From Bacillota bacterium (GTDB lineage Bacteria; Bacillota; Proteinivoracia; UBA4975; VEMY01): a stretch of DNA of 64,000 nucleotides. The notes beneath the pieces are model-generated. The model saw nothing but the letters and a program-made list of their open reading frames with translations, ran no database searches and was not told where the DNA came from. The position numbers and the translations under genes are program-made. The first letter of the stretch is position 1, and each line of letters begins with the position of its first letter. The stretch covers positions 62,001-126,000 of the forward strand of contig VEMY01000010.1 of NCBI GenBank assembly GCA_009711825.1, written 5' to 3'. This document shows, piece after piece, positions 6,593 to 52,608 of the stretch.

Positions 6593-7672
6593 TTACTTGT
6601 ATTCCCTGGCCTGTTCCCTTCCTTCCAGCACCCTGAGTCCACCCAGGGCAAGGGCCAGCATTTCGTCTTCCCCGGGATAAACTTTCACCGGCGCAATAAA
6701 CGATACCCGCTCCTCAATCCAGGGCACCAGCAGTTCCCGGTCGTATGCAAGGCCACCGGTCAGCACAACGGCATCGACATCGCCCCGCAGCACCGCGGCA
6801 CAGCTGCCTATCTCTTTGGCCACCTGATAAGTCATGGCCCGGTAAATTAATTCCGCATCCTTATCGCCTGCACTGACGCGCTCCTGTACTTCCCGCCCGT
6901 CATTTGTTCCCAGATAGGCGACAAGGCCCCCTTGTCCTACAAGCTTTTTATAGAGCTCTTGCTGGCTGTACTTGCCACTGAAACAGAGCTTGACCAAATC
7001 CCCCACCGGCAGGCCGCCGGCCCGTTCCGGCGAAAATGGACCTTCACCATCTAATGCGTTATTTACATCCACAACCCGGCCGCGACAATGGGCGCCTACG
7101 GAAATGCCGCCACCCAAATGTACGACAATCAGATTCACCTTGTCATAATCACTATTAAGCTCTGCAGCAGCCCGGCGGGCAACCGCCTTTTGATTGAGAG
7201 CATGGAAGATACTGCGTCTTTCAATTTCAGGCATGCCGGAAATCCTTGCCTCTGGGTTCAGCTCATCAACCACCACCGGGTCGACAATAAACGCCTGAAT
7301 ATCAAATTGGCTCGCGATTTCCCAGGCAATAATGCCACCTAGGTTCGAAGCATGCTGACCCTGCAGGCCCTGACGTAAATGCTCCAACATCAACTCATTG
7401 ACAGTGTACGTGCCACCGGCGATTGGCTTCAGCAGCCCGCCCCTGCCAACAACAGCCGACAGCTTGTTGAGATTTATCCCCTGGCTATGGAGCGTCTCAA
7501 GAATTACATCTTTGCGGAACTGGTATTGGTCGATGATCGATTCGTACTGTTTCAGTTCATCACTGCTATGGCGCAATGTCTGCTCCAACATCGGCCGGTC
7601 TGCTTCGTAAACAGCAATTTTGGTTGAGGTGGAGCCGGGATTAATTACCAACAGGCGGTGTTTGGCAGTCAT
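6593..7672 (-). CDS. buk: Butyrate (branched-chain acid) kinase, copy 1
   Basis: This 359-residue enzyme of the acetate/butyrate kinase (ASKHA) family phosphorylates ADP with an acyl-phosphate, releasing the free acid and ATP. The N-terminal [14 protein letters not shown] motif (residues 9-22) is the phosphate-binding signature. [16 protein letters not shown] near 75-90 and [11 protein letters not shown] near 184-194 are typical of butyrate kinases. [14 protein letters not shown] near 216-229 follows. It starts with ATG behind AAGGAGGAA. A near-identical layout (dehydrogenase then kinase) recurs upstream at 9763-11909, so this is a second copy, perhaps tuned to a different chain. Substrates are probably isovaleryl-, isobutyryl- or 2-methylbutyryl-phosphate. 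Confidence 0.93.
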
Positions 7673-7685
7673 TGAATTCCTCCTT

Positions 7686-7727
7686 AAAAACCGGGGAGTT
7701 GTGCGATTATCTCCACAACTCCCCCGG
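7686..7727 (-). terminator. Intercistronic hairpin with T run between dehydrogenase 1 and kinase 1
   Basis: The arms CCGGGGAGTTGTG (7691-7703) and its near-complement at 7714-7727 form a GC-rich stem with one bulge. On the minus strand a run of five T follows, then the AAGGAGGAA ribosome binding site of the kinase gene. It looks like a leaky terminator or mRNA-stabilising hairpin that would lower expression of the downstream half of the operon. Confidence 0.6.
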
Positions 7728-7737
7728 CAATACTTAC

Positions 7738-8808
7738 CTAACGCTGAATGAAGTTGCTGCGTACCCGGCCAATCTTCTCGATACGTTCTTCAGCCATACG
7801 ATCAGCAGCTTTGTAAGTGGGGATATTATCCCGTTTGGCAATTTCGATAACCTTGGCGATGTTGTCATAAATTGTGGAAACCTTGGCCATCGCCCGCTCC
7901 TCATTGTAGCCATTCAATTCATCGGCGACATTCATCAAACCGCCGGCGTTAATAACATAATCGGGGGCGTAGAGGATGCCTTTTTCGTGGATAACGTCAC
8001 CATGACGGTCTTCCTTGAGGACGTTGTTGGCTGCGCCGGCAATAATTTTGAATTTAAATTGGGGAATAGTTTCATCGTTAATGATAGCACCCAAAGCGCA
8101 GGGGGCGAAGATATCGCATTCCACACCATAGATGGCATCGGGCTCAACAACTTTGGCGCCAAATTCGTTGACAACCTTGTCAATCGCTTCCTGGTTGATA
8201 TCACAGACAATCAGCTTGGCGCCAACTTCATGCAGGTACTGGCAGAGATAGTAACCAACATGGCCAACACCCTGCACGGCAACGACTTTGTCTTTGAGGT
8301 CGTCGGAGTCCCAGAGTTCCTTGGCGCAAGCCTGCATGCCACGGAAGGTGCCGTAAGCGGTCTTAGGCGAGGGGTCGCCGCTGCTGCCCTTGGCCTTGGA
8401 GACGCCGGTGACAAAATCAGTTTCCAGGTTGACAATATCCATGTCCTGAACAGCAGTTCCTACGTCCTCAGCAGTGATATAGCGGCCATTGAGGCTCTGG
8501 ACAAAGCGGCCAAAGGCACGCCACAGCTCTTCGCTCTTGTCCTTTCTGGAGTCGCCGATGATAACTGCCTTACCGCCGCCCAGATTCAGGCCGGCTGCTG
8601 CCGCCTTATAGGTCATACCCCGGGCCAGACGCAGAACGTCCTCAATTGCTTCGTCTTCGCTGTCATAGTTCCAGAAGCGGGTGCCGCCCAGTGCGGGCCC
8701 CAAAGTGGTGTCATGAATTGCAATCATTGCCTTGAGACCGGAAGTTTTGTCATGACAGAATACCAGTTGCTCGAAACCGTATTTCTCCATGTACTCAAAA
8801 ATCAACAT
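7738..8808 (-). CDS. bcd: Leucine/valine-type amino acid dehydrogenase, copy 1
   Basis: This 356-residue enzyme belongs to the Glu/Leu/Phe/Val dehydrogenase family. It oxidatively deaminates branched-chain amino acids to 2-oxoacids with NAD. The Gly-rich substrate loop and catalytic Lys are seen in [12 protein letters not shown] near residues 74-85. The Rossmann turn [11 protein letters not shown] lies near 176-186, and [13 protein letters not shown] near 235-247 is typical of leucine dehydrogenase. Length matches leucine dehydrogenase, not the longer glutamate dehydrogenases. ATG follows GGGAGGG. It is 26 bases downstream of ptb. A paralogue at 10839-11909 has the same length and start pattern, so the pair probably differ in preferred amino acid. 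Confidence 0.92.
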
Positions 8809-8834
8809 TTAAAACCCTCCCAGTTTTGTTATTA

Positions 8835-9746
8835 TTACTTGCCTTGAGCGGCAATAATGGCGCCCAGGGCAATTGAATTTAACTTAGCTTCCCGGCTGTC
8901 TGACCGTGAGGTCAGAACAACAGGAGCGCGTGCGCCGGCAATGACCCCCGCAGCCCGTGAACGGGCAAAGTAAATGATTGACTTATACAACACATTGCCA
9001 GCTTCAATCATCGGAACCAGCAGAATGTCGGCATTGCCTGCCACCGGTCCGGTAATACCCTTAATTTCAGCGGACTTGGCGCTGACAGCGCCATCCAAGG
9101 CAATTGGCCCGGAAACAATCGCTCTGCCGATTTCGCCCCTCGCAGCCGCTTTCGCAAGGCCGTCGGCGTCAATGGTAGCCTGCATCTTGGGATTGACAAC
9201 CTCCACTGCAGTCAGTGGCGCAATCCGTGGCTCCTCAATTCCCAAGGCATTGGCAACATCAACGGCGTTCTGGGCAATCTGAATCTTCTGTTCCAAGTCC
9301 GGCGCGATATTCATGGCGCCGTCGGTGAGCATAAACAAACGCTCATAGCCCTCCACTTCCAAGACTGCCACGTGACTGAGCAGGCGGTCTGTTCTCAGCC
9401 CCTCGTCCTTATCCAAAACTGCCCGGAGAATATCTGCGGTTCCAACTTTGCCTTTCATCACCAGGTCTGCCTGCCCGCCGCTTACCATGGCTACAGCTGT
9501 TTTGGCGGCTTGAACAGGATCCGGCTCATTGAGCAGCGAACATTGCGCAAGATCTAAACCAACTTCAGCGGCCACCGATTTAATCGTATCCTCATCGCCA
9601 ACCAACGTGACAGACACGACTCCCCAAGTAAGCGCATCGCCAACAGCCTGCAGCGCATCTTTATCCTGGGCCGCGGCCACAACCAGACGTCGACGATTGG
9701 GCAACGTCCTGGCAGCTTCCAGAATCTGCTCCATTTTGGTAAACAT
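8835..9746 (-). CDS. ptb: Phosphate butyryltransferase
   Basis: This 303-residue enzyme of the phosphate acetyl/butyryl transferase family converts an acyl-CoA and phosphate to acyl-phosphate and CoA. Typical segments are DLVMKGKVGTADILRAVLD near residues 85-103, LTDGAMNIAPDL near 134-145, and NADILLVPMIEAGNVLYK near 235-252. It links the 2-oxoacid oxidoreductase to the butyrate kinases so that acyl-CoA energy is recovered as ATP. An upstream in-frame ATG at 9836 would add 30 residues that look unlike the family. I chose the ATG at 9746 because GGAGGTGAG lies 8 bases before it. One ptb lies between the two dehydrogenase-kinase pairs and presumably serves both. Confidence 0.93.
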   Translation of the reverse strand: MFTKMEQILEAARTLPNRRRLVVAAAQDKDALQAVGDALTWGVVSVTLVGDEDTIKSVAAEVGLDLAQCSLLNEPDPVQAAKTAVAMVSGGQADLVMKGKVGTADILRAVLDKDEGLRTDRLLSHVAVLEVEGYERLFMLTDGAMNIAPDLEQKIQIAQNAVDVANALGIEEPRIAPLTAVEVVNPKMQATIDADGLAKAAARGEIGRAIVSGPIALDGAVSAKSAEIKGITGPVAGNADILLVPMIEAGNVLYKSIIYFARSRAAGVIAGARAPVVLTSRSDSREAKLNSIALGAIIAAQGK

Positions 9747-9762
9747 AGTCCTCACCTCCGAC

Positions 9763-10821
9763 CTAAACATATTCCCGGGGCTGCTCAGCTCCGGAAAGGA
9801 CCCGCAAGCACCCCTCAACCAGGGCCTGGAGTTCATCTTCGCCGGGATAAATCAACACCGGAGCAATAAAGCGCACATGGTCTTTGATCCAGCCAACCAA
9901 ACGGTCTGAATGAGCCAAGCCGCCGGTAATCACTATCGCCCGGACAGCACCGGACAGAACCGCAGCCATCGCCCCCACCTCTTTGGCAACCTGGTAAGCC
10001 ATGGCGTAAAACACCGCTTCCGCTTCTTGGTCACCGTCCAGAATGCGGTTTTCGATCTCCATGCCGTCATTGCTGCCGAGATAAGCCAGCAGCCCGCCTT
10101 GCCGGGTCAACTTGCGCAGAAGCTCTGACTCGGTATACTCACCGGAAAAGGCCATTTTGAGCAAGTCACCTGCCGGCAGACCACCGGTGCGCTCCGGCGA
10201 AAATGGTCCCGCCTCGTTGGCATTGTTCACATCTAGCATTCGACCGGCCAACAGCGGCGCCACCGAAATACCACCGCCAAGATGGACGACAATCATATTT
10301 GCCTCCCCAAGGGGCTGCCCCAAATCTTCTGCCGCCCGATGCGCGACCGCACGGATGTTCAGGGCGTGGGACAGACTGCGCCTAGGTATTTCCGGCATGC
10401 CCGAAACCCGCGCCTCAGGAATGAACTCATCAACAGCCACCGGATCAACGATGAATGCAGGTATGCCCAGTCGCTCTCCTAGAGCATGGGCAATCAATCC
10501 ACCAAGATTTGAAGCATGTTGACCCTGTACACCCACACGTAGATCTGCAAGCATCTGTTGGTTCACGGGATAGGTGCCACCGGCTAGCGGTTTCAACAGG
10601 CCTCCCCGGCCAACCACAGCAGACAACTGATCCCGAACCGGGGTCTTCTCCAACCACTCTTCCACAAGCTTGAGACGGTAGTCTAGTTGATCACTAATTA
10701 CAGGCGCCAATTCATCTACTTGGTGCCGCAGAGTCTCGGAAGCAAATTGATCGGTACCTTGAAAAATTGCCAGCTTGGTTGAAGTTGAGCCAGGGTTTAT
10801 GGCCAGTATCCATTGGGTCAT
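9763..10821 (-). CDS. buk: Butyrate (branched-chain acid) kinase, copy 2
   Basis: This 352-residue paralogue of the kinase at 6593-7672 shares all its signatures. These are [14 protein letters not shown] near residues 7-20, [18 protein letters not shown] near 70-87, [14 protein letters not shown] near 180-193 and FSPERTGGLPAGDLL near 205-219. It makes ATP and free acid from an acyl-phosphate. The two copies clearly diverge in the first 60 residues and around the loop after HLGGGISV, so they are old paralogues rather than a recent tandem duplication. The ribosome binding site AGGTG precedes the ATG. It lies 17 bases downstream of the dehydrogenase and 16 bases upstream of ptb, in one transcript. 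Confidence 0.92.
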   Translation of the reverse strand: MTQWILAINPGSTSTKLAIFQGTDQFASETLRHQVDELAPVISDQLDYRLKLVEEWLEKTPVRDQLSAVVGRGGLLKPLAGGTYPVNQQMLADLRVGVQGQHASNLGGLIAHALGERLGIPAFIVDPVAVDEFIPEARVSGMPEIPRRSLSHALNIRAVAHRAAEDLGQPLGEANMIVVHLGGGISVAPLLAGRMLDVNNANEAGPFSPERTGGLPAGDLLKMAFSGEYTESELLRKLTRQGGLLAYLGSNDGMEIENRILDGDQEAEAVFYAMAYQVAKEVGAMAAVLSGAVRAIVITGGLAHSDRLVGWIKDHVRFIAPVLIYPGEDELQALVEGCLRVLSGAEQPREYV

Positions 10822-10838
10822 TTTTACACCTCGTTATA

Positions 10839-11909
10839 CTATTTCCCTACATAATTCCTTGTAATCCGGCCGATTTCGTTTAACCGCTGCTCGACAAGCT
10901 TGTTCGCGGCTTCATCGGTTGTTATCCCTTGTTCTTTGGCGGCTGCAAAGATATCCAACAAACGGTTATAAATCATGGACGCCTTGCGGAAAGCCCTTTC
11001 TTTATTGTAACCTTCCAACTCGTCAGCTACCTGGATCAGACCGCCTGCATTGGCAACATAATCCGGCGCGTAAAGAATGCCGCGGTCGGCGACTGCCTGA
11101 GCGTGCCTTGGTTCTGCCAGAACGTTATTGGCAGCGCCGGCTATACCTTTGCACTTCAACCGAGGGATGGTGTCGTCATTGAGCACGCCACCCAATGCGT
11201 TGGGAGAATAGATGTCGCATTCCACGTCATAAATACTGTCGGGAGCCACAATCTCAATCTGATATTTCTCTTGTACAGCCTTTATGTTGTCTTCGTTGAT
11301 ATCACAACCAATAACCTTGGCGCCTTCTTCAATCAGGTGTCCTACCAAATGCAAACCAACCTTGCCCAGCCCTTGGACAGCGATGACCTTGTCCTTAAGC
11401 TCGTCGTTGCCAAACAGCTCCTTGGCGACGGCCTTGATTGCCCGCCAGGTGCCATATGCAGTGATAATTCCAGAGTTGCCACCGCCACCATATTCAGCCG
11501 GCAATGCCCCAACATACTTGGTTTCTTTCAGCGCAATAACAAAATCATCAAAGGTGGTTCCCACATCGGTCCCGGTCATGAAGCGGCCGTTAAGTACCTC
11601 GACATAGCGAGCAAAAGCCCTGAACAAGCCTTCGGATTTGTCTGTAGCGGGATTGCCCCAGATAAGTGATTTGCCGCCGCCATAGTCCACACCAGAAACC
11701 GCGGATTTGAAGGTCATCCCCTTGGATAGCCGCAATACGTCCAGAACAGCTTCCTCTTCGGTGTCGTAATTCCACATCCGGCATCCACCTAACGCCGGTC
11801 CAAGAGTGCTGTCATGGATGGCTATCAACGACTTTAACCCTGTGGTGCGATCATGATTAAAAAACAGCTGTTCATGACCTTCCTTTGCCATAGTCTCAAA
11901 AATCTTCAA
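10839..11909 (-). CDS. bcd: Leucine/valine-type amino acid dehydrogenase, copy 2 (first gene of the operon)
   Basis: This 356-residue paralogue of the dehydrogenase at 7738-8808 has the same catalytic GVDYGGGKSLIWG loop near residue 75 and a VQGLGKVGLHLVGHL dinucleotide fold near 178. It deaminates leucine, valine or isoleucine. An ATG at 11939 is in frame but lies before the strong GGAGGT site. The TTG at 11909 lies 8 bases after that site and gives a protein starting (M)KIFETMA, which aligns with MLIFEYM of the paralogue and gives the same length. I therefore prefer TTG. It is the promoter-proximal gene behind the sigma-54 promoter. A GGGGNSG insertion near residue 145 is not in copy 1. Confidence 0.9.
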   Translation of the reverse strand: MKIFETMAKEGHEQLFFNHDRTTGLKSLIAIHDSTLGPALGGCRMWNYDTEEEAVLDVLRLSKGMTFKSAVSGVDYGGGKSLIWGNPATDKSEGLFRAFARYVEVLNGRFMTGTDVGTTFDDFVIALKETKYVGALPAEYGGGGNSGIITAYGTWRAIKAVAKELFGNDELKDKVIAVQGLGKVGLHLVGHLIEEGAKVIGCDINEDNIKAVQEKYQIEIVAPDSIYDVECDIYSPNALGGVLNDDTIPRLKCKGIAGAANNVLAEPRHAQAVADRGILYAPDYVANAGGLIQVADELEGYNKERAFRKASMIYNRLLDIFAAAKEQGITTDEAANKLVEQRLNEIGRITRNYVGK

Positions 11910-11947
11910 GCCCCCTACCTCCCTTATTATTTGTACCATTTATACAA

Positions 11948-22762: not shown

Positions 22763-23562
22763 CAGAAATTTGCCTGTGCAGCGTCAACGACCTCAGCGGG
22801 AGTCGGAGGATTGCTAGAGAACCGGGAATCAAAGCCTCCATGGGCCAGATACTCAATATTGCCCTGGGGGCCCTGGATAGGTGAAAAATCCAAGTGGGAC
22901 AAATAAAACCCCTCTTTCCTGGCCACAGTCAACACCGAATCCAAAACCTGAACATGAATCTCAGGATCCCTTACTACTCCTTTTTTGCCGACCTGCTCCC
23001 TGCCCGCCTCAAACTGCGGTTTGATCAACATCACCACTTCTGCCGGCGGCGCAAGTAAACGGGCGATTACCGGCAACACAAGGCGAAGGGAAATAAAAGC
23101 GACATCTATACAGCAAAAATCCGGCACGCCCGCGGTGAAAGCCTGCGCTTGGAGATGTCGAATATTGGTCCGTTCGAGATTAATTACCCGCTCATCTTCC
23201 CGCAGTTTCCAGGCAAGCTGGCCGTAGCCGACATCGACAGCGTAGACCAAGACTGCCCCTGACTGGAGGCAGCAGTCGGTAAACCCGCCTGTGGACGCGC
23301 CAACATCCAATACGATGCGACCGCCCACTTCAAGGCCGAATTCATCGATAGCTTTAGCAAGTTTGAGTCCGCCCCTGCTGACATACGGGTTGGGCTCACG
23401 TAAACTGACGACGGTCCCCTCTGCAATCAAAAATCCGGCCTTGTCCACAGTTTCGCCATTAACCATTGCCTGGCCAGCCATTATCAGGGACCGGGCACGG
23501 GCACGGGTTTCCGCAAGGCCACGCTCGACAAGAATCAAGTCCAGCCTTTTTTTTCCTGCCAT
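22762..23562 (-). CDS. tlyA: TlyA family RNA 2'-O-methyltransferase
   Basis: This 266-residue protein has an N-terminal S4 RNA-binding domain (about 4-65, [20 protein letters not shown]) and an FtsJ-like Rossmann methyltransferase domain. The SAM-binding motif is [18 protein letters not shown] near residues 83-100. Conserved [18 protein letters not shown] follows near 108-125, and [11 protein letters not shown] near 178. Characterised members methylate ribosomal RNA cytidines; some are called haemolysins for historical reasons. The gene overlaps the end of dxs by 28 bases. The dxs-tlyA-nadK-recN order is common in Firmicutes, and part of it recurs in Actinobacteria. Confidence 0.92.
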
Positions 23563-25436
23563 TGACTGCCGCCATCCTCCATTATTTTATCAACTGCGTC
23601 AACGATATCGGAGCTGGTCAGCCTGCAAACGGTTGATAACTGCTGATGTGTGCCGTGGGTAACAAAACCGTCACCAACCCCCAGCAGACGGAGACTGGGC
23701 GTAAGTCCCGCCATGCTGCAAAACTCAGCGATTGCGCTGCCAAGGCCGCCGGCCGTCACGTGCTCCTCCACAACAACCACTCGTCCGCACCGTCCTATGG
23801 TCTGGGAAAGCAAATCTTTATCCAGGGGTTTGACAAACCGGGGGTTGATTACCGCGGCGCTAATCCCCCTGACGGCCAATTGACTTTGGGCCTCCAGGAC
23901 AGCAGGCAAGGTGGTGCCCAAACCAATCAGAACCAGATCCCGGCCATCCCGCAACAATTCGCCTTTACCCAGCGCCATCGGCGTAGACAAGGTAACAGGC
24001 AGCTTTTTGGCGCCGCCCCGGGGGTAACGGACAGCAATCGGTCCGTTATGCTGAACGGAGAGTTGCAACATTTGCTCAAACTCCCGGTAATCCTTGGGCA
24101 TCATTATTGCCATATTGGGGATCGCACGCAGCATCGAGATATCAAACAAGCCGTGATGCGTCTCTCCATCCGCGCCCACCAGGCCGGCCCGATCCACAGC
24201 AAACACCACGGGCAACTCGGGCAGGCAGACATCATGGAGGATTTGGTCATAGGCCCGTTGCAAAAAAGTAGAGTATACAGCCACCACCGGCCGATAGCCG
24301 GAACGGGCCAAACCAGAGGCGAGGGTTACCGCATGTTGTTCCGCAATGCCTACGTCGATGAACCGTCCGGGAAACCGCTGGGCAAATTTTGTAAGGCCTG
24401 TACCGTCAGGCATGGCAGCTGTAATTGCCACGATTCGAGGATCATTTTCAGCCAGGGCGCATAATTTTTCTGAGAAAACGCTGGTATAGGAATCACCGTT
24501 GTTTTTTTTCAGCTCCCCAGTCTCTTTGTCAAAGGGTCCGACACCATGATAAAGAGCTGGATTTAATTCCGCCGGTTTATAACCCTTGCCTTTGTTGGTA
24601 ATTGTATGAATCAGAACCGGACCCTGGTACTGTTTCGCTTTTGCCAGAACCTTCTGCATGGCGCCGATATTATGACCGTCTATCGGCCCTAGGTATGTGA
24701 AGCCCAGCTCTTCAAATATCATTCCGCTGACCAAAAGGTATTTCAGGCTGGATTTGACCCTGTCCATTGTCTTGTAAACTGTGTCGCCAATCGCAGGAAT
24801 CCTGCGCAATAAAAACTCAATGTCCTGCTTGGTCCGGGTGTATTTTGGATCTGTCCGCACCCGGCTTAAATAGGCGGAAAGACCGCCAACATTTTCAGCA
24901 ATTGACATCTCGTTATCATTGAGAATCACTGTTAGATTGCAATGCAAACACCCGGCATGGTTCAGGGCTTCAAATGCCATGCCGCCAGTAAGCGCACCGT
25001 CGCCAATCACAGCAACAACATGATAATCGTCCTGGTTTAAGTCCCGGGCGATGGCCATTCCCAGGCCAGCGGAAATCGAGGTGCTGCTATGCCCAGTTTC
25101 AACTATATCGTGACTGCTCTCAGAACGTTTGGGAAAACCGGAAAGCCCGCCAAATTGGCGTATCGTCTTAAACCGATTGCGGCGCCCGGTTATCAGTTTA
25201 TGCACATAGCACTGATGCCCTACATCCCAGATAATTTTATCTGTAGGTGAATCAAATACGCTGTGTAACGCCAGGGTAAGCTCAACAACACCGAGATTGG
25301 ATGCCAGATGGCCGCCGGTATTGCTGACAACAGCTACAAGCTCTTGGCGAATCTCCTCCGCCAACTTATTAAGTTGATTGACAGACAAATTTTTTAAGTC
25401 CGTTGGTTGGGCTATTGAATCCAAAATTCTCTCCAT
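23535..25436 (-). CDS. dxs: 1-deoxy-D-xylulose-5-phosphate synthase
   Basis: This 633-residue TPP enzyme makes DXP from pyruvate and glyceraldehyde 3-phosphate, the first step of the MEP isoprenoid pathway. Conserved parts are [16 protein letters not shown] near residues 70-85, the TPP motif [17 protein letters not shown] near 143-159 and the [14 protein letters not shown] segment near 171-184. The [15 protein letters not shown] active-site loop lies near 418-432. Length is typical. It starts 2 bases after oapA and overlaps tlyA. Its place downstream of OLE RNA and oapA, with ispA upstream, is the usual genomic setting of OLE RNA. Confidence 0.97.
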
Positions 25437-25437
25437 A

Positions 25438-25992
25438 TTAAGCGCCTCGCTTTCCAGGCCAAAGCTTTTGAACGTAAAATATTACTCTTCCGGCAATCAT
25501 TAATATATCCGGCGCCCTGTTAATAGCCAAGGTCTTGCCAATCCCCTTGCCGCCAACCGTCAGGGAGGCAACCAATGCGGTTAGAATTATACTTAAGTAT
25601 GTGCTTTCTGCAATAATATTATCAGTGGCCAGTTGAAAGATGATTGCCGTAGCTGCAGCACCACTGATAATTCCACTGATATCTCCGACCACATCATTGC
25701 AGAACGTGGCTACCTGCTCGGAATTTTTGGCCAGAGACAATGCCTGGCGGGCGCCAGGCAATCGTTTAGCGGCTTTGGCGTTCAGTGGTGGCAAAGAGGA
25801 AACTGCGGCAGCAGTGCCGATTGTATCAAACACAACCCCCAGCAAGATTATTGCCAGCAAGACCAATAACGACCCAATGAGTCCAAGCCAGCCTAAAAGT
25901 GATTGGGAAACAATATTAAAAAACAAGGATAAAAAAAAAGTCCATAATAAAATATTGCGCAACCAACGCATTGACTGCTTACCGTTAGCCAA
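25438..25992 (-). CDS. oapA: OLE-associated membrane protein OapA
   Basis: This 184-residue protein has about four membrane helices (near 9-30, 36-58, 106-126 and 132-150). A polar stretch (about 63-100) resembles the DUF21/CNNM-CorB region ([18 protein letters not shown], then [15 protein letters not shown]). The basic ends suit RNA binding. The identification rests mainly on position. In OLE-bearing bacteria the gene between OLE RNA and dxs encodes OapA, which tethers the RNA to the membrane as a dimer. The TTG start follows GAGGTGAG at 8 bases. A database would label it a hypothetical or CorB-like protein. I am fairly sure of OapA because the structured RNA precedes it. Confidence 0.82.
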
Positions 25993-26039
25993 AAGAACTC
26001 ACCTCTGACTTCCGACTTCAATTCCGATTCAGACATCTT

Positions 26040-26650
26040 ATATGTAAGGGGTGGTAGCTTGGCAAGTAAATGCTGCGGCTTAGGTCTAGCAGGTTTTCCC
26101 AACGGTTCACCAGCTGTCGCCAGACTGGCGGTTCCCCTTTAAGCCCCGCCCCGACTAACGTCGGCGCCAGATAGCCACTGAGACCGCACTTTAATCCCTG
26201 CCAAGCCTCTTTACAGAACAGCCTAGGAGCTTTCCTCAACGGTACAACCCTCTGCCCTAGCCTCTTTTGCAATTTAGGTTTCAAGCGCCTGAGCACAGTT
26301 GGCGTAGGCCAACGCCAGCTGCGCGGAATACCGCAATCCACCTATTTCGCTCAAGGCAGGCTACACTGCACACAGCCCCTCTTAATATCGGTCGGAACCG
26401 CATACAGGTTCTTCCCAAGCCGTAGCACTATACCCTCTGCATAGCGCCACGCACTTGGGTCTCCACGAAGGCGGGGTCAACGCCTACATGCCCTTGTAGA
26501 TCGCCCCATCCTTCTTAACTCCCAGCACCAACCCCCAACGGGGCGTCGGCAGCCGGCACCAGGAACTTCATCGATGTGCCCTTTGACGGATTTTTAGGCC
26601 CGCCCTCAGACAGAGGTGCACCGACTAGGATACTGCACCACCCTGAATGG
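26040..26650 (-). ncRNA. ole: OLE RNA (ornate, large, extremophilic)
   Basis: The roughly 600-base gap between yuiD/ispA and oapA/dxs has no credible gene but is rich in short perfect helices. The two ends can pair (GGGTGGT of the 5' end, plus 26637-26643, with ACCACCC near the 3' end, plus 26049-26055). Local hairpins include GTTGGC/GCCAAC at 26298-26313, CCGAC/GTCGG at 26151-26164 and CGCCA/TGGCG at 26118-26130. Length, orientation and the flanking isoprenoid genes plus oapA match OLE RNA of extremophilic Firmicutes. OLE forms a membrane ribonucleoprotein linked to stress tolerance and magnesium homeostasis. Exact ends are estimates; no covariance search was possible. Confidence 0.85.
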
Positions 26651-26666
26651 TATTATCAGTTTAACA

Positions 26667-26716: not shown

Positions 26717-27151
26717 TCAAGTTAATAAATATGCAATTAAACCACCTAAAACCGCACCGGAAAAGACTTCAAAAGGCGAATGTCCTAGCAATTCTTTTAA
26801 TTTTTCTTTTTCATTGACCAAATTGCTGCCATGGTAGAGGCGCGGAATCAGTGTATTGAGAATTCGGGCCTGCTTACCTACTGCCCGGCGCACACCAGCT
26901 GCATCATACATCACTATTAACGCCAGCACCAAGGCAATCGCAAAAGCCGTGGAATCCCAACCTTCTACAATACCCACGGCGGTAGTCAAAGCAGAAACGA
27001 AAGCAGCATGGGAGCTTGGCATGCCGCCGGCTCCCACCAGCCGGCTGAGGTTGAGCTTACGGTGGGTTAATAGGTCAAAGAACACCTTTAACAGCTGGGC
27101 AACTGTCCACCCCGCCAATGAAACCCAAAAAATTTTGTTGTCAAAAAACAT
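26717..27151 (-). CDS. Divergent PAP2 family membrane protein (YuiD-like)
   Basis: This 144-residue integral membrane protein resembles the divergent PAP2 family (DUF212). It has four or five hydrophobic segments and conserved motifs. These are GGMPSSHAAFVSALTTAVG near residues 42-60 (the phosphatase-like SH pair), VMYDAAGVRRAVGKQA near 79-94 and LGHSPFEVFSGAVLGG near 122-137. Members may dephosphorylate lipid phosphates such as isoprenoid diphosphates; this is unproven. It lies 12 bases after ispA, so it is cotranscribed with the farnesyl diphosphate synthase, and it separates ispA from the OLE RNA. GGAGGCGG precedes its start. Confidence 0.88.
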   Translation of the reverse strand: MFFDNKIFWVSLAGWTVAQLLKVFFDLLTHRKLNLSRLVGAGGMPSSHAAFVSALTTAVGIVEGWDSTAFAIALVLALIVMYDAAGVRRAVGKQARILNTLIPRLYHGSNLVNEKEKLKELLGHSPFEVFSGAVLGGLIAYLLT

Positions 27152-27163
27152 CTCGCCGCCTCC

Positions 27164-28045
27164 TTAGCTGCTGCGCTCACTGAGATTAAGGGCCAACTGC
27201 CGCAGGTGCTCACCTCTGGGGCCAAAATCCTCTATACTGGCAACAGCCCGTTCTGTGTACTGGGCGACCATTGTTCGTGCCTTGTCGACGCCCCAGAAAT
27301 CAACAATTGTTTTTTTGCCGGCCCGGGCATCAGCTCCCGGCTCTTTGCCCAGCTCATTGACATTGCCCACCACGTCAAGGATGTCATCAACAATTTGAAA
27401 ACACAGTCCCAAGGCCTCGGCATATGTGGTCAGGGTCTGCAACTGCTTGTCGGAAGCATTTGCGGCAATTGCGCCCAAGCGAACAGCCGCCCGCAGCAGC
27501 GCGCCTGTCTTGCGGCTGTGCATAGCCAATAAATCAGTTTCAGTGGCGACTTGGCCGAGAATATCTATAACCTGACCCGCGACCATTCCCTGGGGACCCG
27601 CATCTTTCGCCAATTCCCTGACCATGGCGACAGTAGTTTCCGGTTTCCGCTGGGTCAGGCTGATGATTGCAAACGCCTCGGTCAGCAAAGCGTCGCCGGC
27701 CAAAATCGCCATTCCATCGCCAAAAACTTTATGGTTGGTTGGTTTGCCCCGGCGCAGATCATCATCATCCATGGCCGGCAGGTCATCGTGAATTAGGGAA
27801 TAGGTGTGCACGAATTCCAAGGCCACAGCTGCGTCTAAGGCACATTCATGTTCCGCACCGCAGGCTTCAGCAGCAGCCAGAGTCAATACCGGCCGCAGAC
27901 GTTTGCCACCGGCAAAAAGAGAGTATTGCATCGCTTCCCGCAAAAGCGACGGGCTGTCAAGCCACTGCAGATGCCGCTCCATTGCGGCCTCCACCAACAG
28001 GCAGCGTTCTTGGATATAAGAGTTCAGATTAAAGCTATTCGTCAT
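27164..28045 (-). CDS. ispA: Farnesyl diphosphate synthase (IspA)
   Basis: This 293-residue trans-prenyltransferase condenses isopentenyl and dimethylallyl diphosphate to farnesyl diphosphate, feeding undecaprenyl and quinone synthesis. The first Asp-rich motif is LIHDDLPAMDDDDLRRGKPT near residues 84-103. The second is FQIVDDILDVVGN near 216-228, and GGKRLRPVLTL lies near 47-57. The long chain-length region with two extra residues in the first motif matches bacterial FPPS. It overlaps xseB by 11 bases, so exonuclease VII and isoprenoid genes share a transcript, as in most Firmicutes. Confidence 0.96.
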   Translation of the reverse strand: MTNSFNLNSYIQERCLLVEAAMERHLQWLDSPSLLREAMQYSLFAGGKRLRPVLTLAAAEACGAEHECALDAAVALEFVHTYSLIHDDLPAMDDDDLRRGKPTNHKVFGDGMAILAGDALLTEAFAIISLTQRKPETTVAMVRELAKDAGPQGMVAGQVIDILGQVATETDLLAMHSRKTGALLRAAVRLGAIAANASDKQLQTLTTYAEALGLCFQIVDDILDVVGNVNELGKEPGADARAGKKTIVDFWGVDKARTMVAQYTERAVASIEDFGPRGEHLRQLALNLSERSS

Positions 28046-43084: not shown

Positions 43085-43229
43085 AATAAATATCTGAGCA
43101 CAATCTTGTGCACATCGCGTTTTTAAACTCCGAAGGTGTTTAAAATACGCTTCCTTAAACCGTGGTCTGCTTCTTTTTATAGGCGACTCAATTGCAGATT
43201 AGGTGTCACAAAACACTGGAGGGAATTAC

Positions 43230-45806
43230 ATGGGCAATTTCAAGCGACACATCAACCCCTGGCTGGGTGAAATGCTGGAACATCTACATATGAATCTGGA
43301 CTATGAAAAGGGTGAAGGTAGTTTTTTGTATGCCAAGGGCAAAGCGTATTTGGATTGCGTGTCCGCCTACGGCGCCCTTCCCTTCGGCCATAACCCGCCG
43401 GAAATTTGGGCCGCCCTGGAAAAAGTGCGCTCCACCGCCAGGCCAAACTTTATGCAACCCTCGGCGCTAACGCCGGCAGCCGAGCTGGCAGAGCGCCTGC
43501 TTTCCCTCGCGCCTCCCGGCCTGGATTATGTGACTTTCACCAACAGCGGCGCCGAGGCCGTTGAAGCGGCTATAAAACTCGCCCGCTCGGCCACAGGTAG
43601 AAATAAAATCCTCACCACCAGCAATAGTTTTCATGGCAAAACCCTGGGCGCCCTCTCGGCCACCGGTAAAGAATCTTATCAAGCGGCCTTTGGCGCTCCG
43701 GTCCCCGGCTTCGATTACATCCCTTTCGGCGATTCCCATGCGCTTGCCGCATACCTGGAGGCCGACAGTGGGAAGCCGGCAGCGTTTATTGTGGAGCCGG
43801 TGCAGGGTGAAGGCGGCGTTGTACTACCGCCTGCGGGCTACCTAAAAGCTGTGCGTGAGCTCTGCAGCAAACATCAGGTTGTGTTAATTGTTGATGAGAT
43901 TCAAACCGGACTGGGCCGCACCGGCCGCTTGTTTGCTTGCGAAACGGAGGCTATTACTCCCGATGTGCTGCTTTTGGCCAAAGCCCTAGGCGGCGGGCTG
44001 ATGCCCATCGGCGCAGTCTTGAGCAAGAAAGACTTCTATTCCAGTGAATATGGACTTAAACATTCTTCTACATTCGCCGGCGGCACTTTGGCCTGTGAGG
44101 CGGGCATTGCAGTCTTGGAGCTGTTGACTGCCGATGGCCAGGCAATGGTAAAAAAAGCAGCCGAAACAGGCGCCTGGCTCCACCAGCGTCTAGAGGTACT
44201 CACTGCCCCCTATGATTTTGTTACTGTCCGGGGACGGGGACTGATGCTGGGCCTGGAGTTCAACATCGACAGAAACACCCATCCCCATTGCCTGCTTGGC
44301 AATTTGGCGGAACAGCAGCTTTTGACGCCGCTGGTCTCCAGCCATCTCCTGAATCAACATCAGGTGCGGGTGGCGCCAACACTAAACGGCGCCAATGTTA
44401 TCCGCATCCAGCCCCCGTTGACAATAACAGAAACAGAAGCAGAGCAGCTTTTGACAGCTCTTGAACAGACATTGCACCTTTTGGACCAGGGCGATACCGG
44501 CGCGCTGCTCAGCCCGCTGTTGGCCGATGGCAGCCCCACCCGGCTACCCCGCAAGCGTATCCCCCGTCAGCCCCAGATTCCGCGGGGCCGCAAATTTGCT
44601 TTTCTGCTCCATCCCCTGGCTGCCAACAGTTTTTCAGAGTTCGACGCCAGCCTCGGGCAGTTAAAACCCGAACAATTGGATGTCCTGATTCAGGACTGGC
44701 AGTCGGAACTATCGCCCTTTGTAATCGGCGAAGCGCCAATTCAATCGGCCGCCGGCGTCAGCGCCACTTGTCAGTTTATCAACATCCCAGCAACGGCTAA
44801 ACAGTTGATGGAAATGAATCCGGAAGCCAGTCTCGCCCTGGTGCGCCAAGGCGTAGAACTGGCCCGGGAGCAGGGCGCGGAGCTGGTGGGCCTGGGCGCC
44901 TTCACCTCGGTTGTCACCTGGGGCGGCATGCGGGTCCGGGATGTGGGTGTGCCTTTGACCACCGGCAACAGCTATACGGTGGCCACCGCCGGCGAGGCCG
45001 TGCTCCAGGCCCTGGAGCGGCTGGGCATTTTGCCCCAGCGAACAACGGCGGCGGTGGTTGGCGCGTCTGGCTCCATCGGTAGCGCCCTTTCCCACCTGCT
45101 GGCCGAATCGGTGGGTCACTTGGTGCTACTGGGCAACCCGTCCAATCCCCAACGCAGCCGTCAACGCCTGCAGGCAGTGGCAGACTCCATTTGCCGTCAC
45201 TTGCTGACAGAAGCGCCAGACAGTGCCATTGGCCAGATGCTCCGCAGACTACAGCCGCCGGCTACAACAGCCGATGACGACACGTTTACCAAGTTCTTTG
45301 TGGATGCTGCCAAGAATATTCCCATCACCATCAGCGTCGATGCCGACGCCTCCCTGCCCCGGGCCGACGTCGTGGCCACCGCAACCAATTCGGTCAGCGA
45401 GTTGGTGACCCCGGGCAATGTGAAATTCGGCGCCGTTGTCTGCGATCTTTCACGGCCAGCCAATGTCAGTCGGGAAATCAAACGCCTGCGTCCCGATGTG
45501 CTTGTCATCGATGGCGGCGTGGTCGAACTCTGGCAGCGCCCGGATCTTGGGTGGAATTTCGGGTTTGAGCAGGGCCTGGGTTATGCTTGCATGGCAGAAA
45601 CCATGCTGCTGGCTCTTGAAGGCCATCTCCAGCACACCAGCATCGGCAGCAACATTCCCATGGAGACCGTGCTGATGATGCGCAAGCTGGCCCAAAAACA
45701 CGGTTTTCGGGTCGCAGATTTACGCAGCTTCGACAAGCCGCTTTCTGAAGCCGATTGGCAGCGGGTTGTCCGTGCCCGCAACGGTCATTCCAAAAAGGTA
45801 AATTGA
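43230..45806 (+). CDS. Fusion of class III aminotransferase and acyl-ACP-reductase-like domain
   Basis: This 858-residue protein has two catalytic halves. Residues 1-425 are a fold-type I class III aminotransferase: TNSGAEAVEAAIKLAR near 104-119, VDEIQTGLGRTGR near 221-233 with the PLP Asp222, and AKALGGGLMPIGA near 250-262 with the Schiff-base Lys251. Residues about 460-850 resemble cyanobacterial fatty acyl-ACP reductase: GLGAFTSVVTWGG near 554, LTTGNSYTVATAG near 576, the Rossmann turn GASGSIGSAL at 611-620, and ACMAETMLLALE near 786 with a Cys at the position of the reductase nucleophile. The likely reaction is acyl thioester to aldehyde to amine, or the reverse; this is inference. The ATG at 43230 follows GGAGGG. 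It is the only plus-strand gene. Confidence 0.85.
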   Translation: MGNFKRHINPWLGEMLEHLHMNLDYEKGEGSFLYAKGKAYLDCVSAYGALPFGHNPPEIWAALEKVRSTARPNFMQPSALTPAAELAERLLSLAPPGLDYVTFTNSGAEAVEAAIKLARSATGRNKILTTSNSFHGKTLGALSATGKESYQAAFGAPVPGFDYIPFGDSHALAAYLEADSGKPAAFIVEPVQGEGGVVLPPAGYLKAVRELCSKHQVVLIVDEIQTGLGRTGRLFACETEAITPDVLLLAKALGGGLMPIGAVLSKKDFYSSEYGLKHSSTFAGGTLACEAGIAVLELLTADGQAMVKKAAETGAWLHQRLEVLTAPYDFVTVRGRGLMLGLEFNIDRNTHPHCLLGNLAEQQLLTPLVSSHLLNQHQVRVAPTLNGANVIRIQPPLTITETEAEQLLTALEQTLHLLDQGDTGALLSPLLADGSPTRLPRKRIPRQPQIPRGRKFAFLLHPLAANSFSEFDASLGQLKPEQLDVLIQDWQSELSPFVIGEAPIQSAAGVSATCQFINIPATAKQLMEMNPEASLALVRQGVELAREQGAELVGLGAFTSVVTWGGMRVRDVGVPLTTGNSYTVATAGEAVLQALERLGILPQRTTAAVVGASGSIGSALSHLLAESVGHLVLLGNPSNPQRSRQRLQAVADSICRHLLTEAPDSAIGQMLRRLQPPATTADDDTFTKFFVDAAKNIPITISVDADASLPRADVVATATNSVSELVTPGNVKFGAVVCDLSRPANVSREIKRLRPDVLVIDGGVVELWQRPDLGWNFGFEQGLGYACMAETMLLALEGHLQHTSIGSNIPMETVLMMRKLAQKHGFRVADLRSFDKPLSEADWQRVVRARNGHSKKVN

Positions 45807-52438: not shown

Positions 52439-52608
52439 CCTGTTACCTGAGAGATTTCATCCCCTTTGGTGCGCTGCAAACAACGCTCTCCAGAGTTGTG
52501 TCCAAGTGACAGTACTTTTGCCTGAGAGTTTCGGCCTGAACGCAACATTTCAAGGCCTTGCTCCTTCGGCGCCCGCCGTGCGCGGATCTCTCCCGTCACC
52601 CATCATCC
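52435..52608 (-). promoter_or_regulatory. Tandem glycine riboswitch (two aptamers)
   Basis: Aptamer 1 (about 52602-52501) starts GGGAGAGATC and ends with ACTCTCAGGCAAAAGTACTG. Aptamer 2 (about 52499-52435) starts CTCTGGAGAGCG and ends with ATCTCTCAGGTAACAGGACAG. The GGAGAG opening and CTCTCAGG-AA-AGGAC closing elements of each are the gcvT-motif signature. Two aptamers in tandem upstream of gcvT are the standard glycine-sensing arrangement. Together with the downstream terminator it should be an ON switch for the gcv operon. Confidence 0.95.

Follow-up and report, generated by a model that had tools for sequence, protein, structure and literature searches.

The region at positions 26657-26035 of the minus strand is, taken as a whole, best explained as a full-length OLE noncoding RNA that is co-directional with an isoprenoid operon and has the gene of its protein partner OapA directly downstream, a reading to which we assign a probability of about 0.9. 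The window, i.e. the whole stretch of 64,000 nucleotides that was analysed, thus holds a member of a class that ranks with the largest structured RNAs of bacteria and for which no biochemical function is known.

Identification of the OLE RNA and its operon

Searching the complete window with the models of Rfam 15 gave an OLE (RF01071) covariance match at 26657-26035 (minus strand) scoring 499.3 bits (E 1.7e-143), well above the gathering score of 50 bits, and the alignment covers model positions 1-616 from end to end without truncation. A genome-wide covariance search (3,089,666 bases in 77 contigs) indicates that this is the single OLE of the host, and the same kind of search was positive in 0 of 14 control genomes. 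The matches to Pfam and NCBIfam define the gene order xseA, xseB, ispA, DUF212, OLE, oapA, dxs and tlyA, being xseA recognised by sequence only, and the genes around the RNA are the following:

27164-28045, minus strand: ispA, farnesyl diphosphate synthase (NF045485, above cut-off)
26717-27151, minus strand: DUF212 divergent PAP2 family gene, yuiD-like (PF02681, E 8.8e-52)
26035-26657, minus strand: OLE RNA gene (ole), full-length form (Rfam RF01071; conserved columns all intact)
25438-25992, minus strand: oapA, 184 aa, TTG start, predicted CNNM-like membrane protein (OapA profile, synteny and fold matches)
23535-25436, minus strand: dxs, 1-deoxy-D-xylulose-5-phosphate synthase (TIGR00204, E 3.9e-253)

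A sequence-only reading of this DNA had proposed OLE from the size, orientation and flanking genes (ispA/yuiD and oapA/dxs) of a roughly 600-base stretch without genes. This stretch is real, extending from the end of the DUF212/yuiD-like frame at 26717 to the start of oapA at 25992; the flanking genes are borne out by the family matches and the identity by the full-length covariance match, and neither of the outcomes that would speak against it, the absence of an OLE match or a conserved protein encoded in the region, was seen. The span then given to OLE, 25438-26650, holds only as RNA plus oapA, because the RNA itself starts near 26643; the mature molecule probably corresponds to about 26643-26049.

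Elsewhere in the window, the only other Rfam match above its gathering score is a glycine riboswitch aptamer (RF00504, 66 bits) at 52500-52605 (minus strand), upstream of apparent gcvT and gcvP genes. The plus strand carries at 43203-45806 an 867-aa frame in which an apparent class III aminotransferase is fused to a second, dehydrogenase-like half, and at 6593-11939 (minus strand) two butyrate-kinase-like and two amino-acid-dehydrogenase-like genes, read by eye, are clustered, possibly as a duplicated branched-chain acid pathway.

RNA structure and dimer contacts

We have compared the window RNA with a set of 103 aligned OLE RNAs, mostly high-scoring matches from one phylum. At the 186 columns that are conserved in at least 97% of these sequences, the window sequence itself included, no departure was found (0 of 186), so that the OLE core is intact. 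The structural elements located in the window are:

26637-26643, minus strand: P1 5' strand GGGUGGU, which closes the RNA (exact complement of 26049-26055; paired changes in relatives)
26049-26055, minus strand: P1 3' strand ACCACCC (pairs with 26637-26643)
26625-26635, minus strand: putative P2 5' strand CAGUAUCCUAG, with a CUAG palindrome (can pair with CUAGGCUG, from which P2 is assigned)
26219-26226, minus strand: putative P2 3' strand CUAGGCUG (pairing with the P2 5' strand)
26608-26622, minus strand: P3/P3.1 5' strand GGUGCACCUCUGUCU, proposed membrane-spanning helix (pairs with 26257-26241)
26241-26257, minus strand: P3/P3.1 3' strand GGGCAGAGGGUUGUACC (pairs with 26622-26608)
26585-26605, minus strand: P4 hairpin; its A-rich loop CCUAAAAAUCC is conserved (A-A bridge in the OLE dimer)
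26539-26545, minus strand: L5.1 loop CGCCCCG, loop-loop dimer contact (covaries with L6)
26487-26496, minus strand: L6 loop CAAGGGCAUG, partner of L5.1 (covaries with L5.1)
26305-26312, minus strand: L9 loop UUGGCCUA, self-complementary GGCC, symmetrical kissing loop (palindromic in most relatives with a long enough P9)
26114-26121, minus strand: loop GGCGACAG of a 3'-domain hairpin, taken as P13, the OapB site, from the published description

The pairing of the two ends noticed in the sequence-only reading (26637-26643 with 26049-26055) is exact. P2 is the published region of contact between OLE and OapA (PMC12265935). All three published dimer contacts, the A-run of L4, the L5.1/L6 pair and the palindromic L9, are kept in the window RNA. 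For the first of these, a pattern search found CUAAAAAU in 99 of the 103 relatives; the A-A bridge of the OLE dimer is described in PMC12286853. The covariation of L5.1 with L6 takes the A-U form in 50 sequences and the C-G form, which is that of the window, in 14, whereas C is never (n=0) combined with a base other than G, counts that are inflated by the kinship of the sequences; covariation at the intermolecular contacts of OLE had already been reported (PMC12286853).

The P5/P6 region is also conserved among the aligned relatives. Near these helices OapC and bS21 would induce a kink-turn in OLE. In H. halodurans, bS21 is reported to bind a P6 segment that mimics the 16S anti-Shine-Dalgarno sequence CCUCCU (PMC12054373), and the corresponding window segment (26472-26467) reads GCCUUC and not CCUCCU. 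Among relatives, CCUCC occurs in no more than 26 of 98, an upper bound owing to end trimming, and is missing from at least 72 of 98. From the window segment and these counts, the mimic is therefore not shared by OLE RNAs in general, at least in this phylum.

Instead of being an independent RNA, the stretch might serve oapA/dxs as an untranslated leader or an attenuator, which would account for its location 57 nt before oapA among the co-directional genes of one operon, as well as for the failure to find a promoter-like site of the same strand between 25900 and 27300. We consider this reading very improbable, given that conservation extends over the full length of OLE, including the closing P1 helix, that the 186 near-invariant columns hold across many genera, that OLE persists in a genome where oapA is gone (G331, see below), and that in H. 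halodurans OLE is an abundant and processed RNA (PMC12265935, PMC11332333).

Length of the P3 helix

Lyon and Breaker have proposed that the P3/P3.1 helix crosses the membrane (PMC12265935), for which a fixed length is what would be required. In the window this helix has 15 pairs and a 2-nt bulge; in relatives, the P3 5' strand measures 16-20 nt (99 sequences) and P3/P3.1 comprises 10-15 base pairs, averaging 13.4 (89 sequences), its sequence varying freely while its length stays near-constant. The P9 element ranges from 36 to 145 nt in the same sequence set; in this comparison of stem lengths only the rows for the P3 5' strand and P9 were used, as loose anchors gave outliers in several stems. 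The near-constant length of P3 would thus support the membrane-spanning proposal, although without deciding it, because any rigid fold would also fix the length.

The OapA protein

Neither Pfam nor NCBIfam returned an OapA family for the 184-aa frame at 25992-25438, for which NCBIfam gave no match at all, and for this reason we built a profile of our own to identify OapA. Relatives with 37-56% identity are found on six titled genome contigs, and in all of these (6/6) a full-length OLE lies directly upstream. Using a profile of the proteins encoded downstream of OLE, we detected an OapA relative directly after the RNA in 102 of 102 testable loci (103 OLE loci were collected and L137 was left out of this count). 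The window protein scores 260.5 bits against a 7-sequence profile in which it is itself included, and is 56% identical to that of locus L002. The residues D56, D100, G103, D104, G111, G148, K149 and K153 are present in all or nearly all OapA sequences. On the strength of these comparisons, of the sub-threshold CNNM match and of the predicted fold, both given below, the frame is assigned as OapA.

In agreement with the sequence-only reading, the gene begins with a TTG at 25992, 57 nt past the end of P1 and with the ribosome binding site AGAGGTGAG just upstream, and the protein has a CNNM-like region, as judged from a sub-threshold profile match and from the predicted fold. Indeed, the comparison with CNNM (PF01595) gives 18.0 bits, below the cut-off of 28.4, and we thus do not file OapA as a CNNM member. 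The AlphaFold2 model obtained from seven sequences is all-helical (mean pLDDT 78), and its six top Foldseek matches in the PDB are all CNNM/CorB/CorC Mg2+ transporters, with probabilities of 0.97-1.00, TM-scores of 0.45-0.57 (by query length) and weak E-values (0.03-0.7); a sequence search against PDB chains found nothing real. The model thus predicts that OapA is CNNM-like, resembling the CNNM/CorC membrane domain, which is also the published view (PMC11332333).

Co-occurrence of OLE and OapA

In the 398 sampled genomes of the phylum, OLE is present in 284 and an OapA-profile match in 294, and comparison of the two lists by eye shows OapA in 283 of the 284 OLE carriers. The RNA and the protein are thus almost perfectly linked. 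A strong OapA match without OLE was noted in six genomes. In the five that could be placed (G122, G215, G240, G263 and G355; the sixth is G333), no more than about 240 nt separate OapA from a contig end, on the side where OLE would be. We have thus rejected these five as true cases of OapA without OLE, the RNA having probably remained unassembled. The few further OapA carriers without OLE have weak matches and may be other CNNM proteins.

Fragmented matches were treated likewise. Introns or duplications behind the split or multiple OLE of G007, G220, G239, G269, G127 and G161 were rejected, since the fragments lie mostly at contig ends, and we read them as assembly breaks; an apparent shortened variant in G011 was rejected because of the runs of N on either side of it. 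In these six split cases and in the five genomes named above, contigs end within OLE or beside it. Perhaps the conserved OLE sequence branches metagenome assembly graphs, and OLE would then be under-counted. Low scores across the whole model, from 170 to 282 bits, were observed in G025, G238 and G387 (loci L069, L062 and L063); L069 has runs of N, and L062 and L063 may be divergent forms of OLE.

The CNNM-like fold and the weak CNNM profile match could be taken to mean that the 184-aa frame encodes a small transporter of the CNNM/MpfA type that has nothing to do with the RNA and is adjacent to it by chance. This is very improbable, considering that the same gene follows OLE at every testable locus, that OapA accompanies OLE in all but one of the carriers, and that the placed strong OapA cases without OLE all lie close to a contig end. 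The idea that a conserved protein is encoded and the RNA match incidental can be practically dismissed: Pfam and NCBIfam returned no family for the only sizeable same-strand frame within OLE (26341-26018, 107 aa), indels of widely differing length separate the relatives in P7-P10, and the covariance score reaches 499 bits.

Having retained OLE with OapA as the reading of the locus, we have looked at the one carrier that departs from the linkage. Genome G331 (99% complete, 68% GC) has an OLE of 475 bits with 0 departures at the 186 conserved columns, in an operon with xseB, ispA, OLE and dxs, where about 200 nt with a GC-rich hairpin occupy the expected oapA site (region L140:1501-2360, equivalent to G331 C36:3026-3885). 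No OapA was found next to this OLE, in a search of the whole genome or with the 102-sequence profile on 1.9 Mb of it, nor any CNNM protein by a crude motif search, and OapB- and OapC-like proteins are present. According to a published survey (PMC11332333), OLE may never be found separate from OapA, and the OLE genes seen in the rare organisms without OapA look defective, which is not the case of the G331 RNA. We therefore put forward, tentatively and at somewhat less than even odds, that OLE can stay intact without OapA, as in the operon ispA - OLE - dxs of G331, so that not every OLE may depend on OapA; the missing oapA may also be an assembly error. If true, OLE would have a function that is separable from its membrane anchor, or an unrelated protein would have replaced OapA.

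Other partners and proposed mechanism

The genes for OapB, OapC and bS21 are all found in the host genome. The OapB candidate, identified by weak similarity and position, is a 94-aa KOW-like protein; its gene lies between map and infA, and the protein finds OapB (7k9b, E 2.2e-4) as its top match in the PDB. The OapC/YbxF homologue is an L7Ae-family protein encoded beside rpsL, with YbxF, the orthologue of OapC, as best PDB match; a bS21 gene is likewise present. A CNNM search of the host genome found no canonical (MpfA-type) gene, the only hits being the sub-cut-off OapA and one unrelated weak match, as expected of an OLE carrier; a canonical CNNM protein is encoded in 12 of the 14 control genomes. 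All 13 genomes of the class have OLE (13/13) and 5 of the 13 also have a canonical CNNM, which indicates that the replacement of MpfA is not strict and that the known anticorrelation is no more than a tendency.

By analogy with H. halodurans, C. acetobutylicum and C. botulinum, OLE would form a dimer of two RNAs via L4, L5.1/L6 and L9, anchored at the membrane by OapA, and its fold would be acted on by OapB and OapC. Most likely, the resulting particle would replace MpfA-type Mg2+ export and link metal and stress status to growth. This picture of a membrane-anchored RNA dimer tied to Mg2+ handling and to stress comes from the literature, and the data obtained here are compatible with it.

Comparison with known OLE and CNNM systems

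The possible natural occurrence of OLE without oapA, the nearly constant length of a P3 helix with a drifting sequence and the limited distribution of the anti-Shine-Dalgarno mimic offer concrete tests for the field. The locus itself is one more complete case: every known partner gene is present and an MpfA-type transporter is absent, in line with the current model but without extending it.

With the CNNM/CorC/MpfA proteins (PF01595), the window OapA is predicted to share the fold of the membrane domain, but at 184 aa it is too short to hold the CBS and CorC domains as well, and its score stays below the cut-off. In respect to the OapA class, position, length and the conserved FD..G.A, ND.VGD and VGGK motifs are the same and nothing notable differs, the start codon being TTG. 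OLE variants 1 and 2 (TANB77 and RF39 clades; PMC11332333) have the conserved core in common with the window RNA, which, unlike them, retains P7, P8 and P9 in full together with the presumed P13 loop and is thus not a shortened variant. Compared with the full-length OLE class (RF01071; H. halodurans, C. acetobutylicum, C. botulinum), the length, the near-invariant nucleotides, the P1 closing helix, the L4, L5.1/L6 and L9 contacts and the position between ispA/DUF212 and oapA/dxs are all shared, whereas the P6 3' strand, GCCUUC, is without the CCUCC(U) mimic of H. halodurans (PMC12054373). The window OLE is a further full-length example of this known class and not a new kind of RNA.
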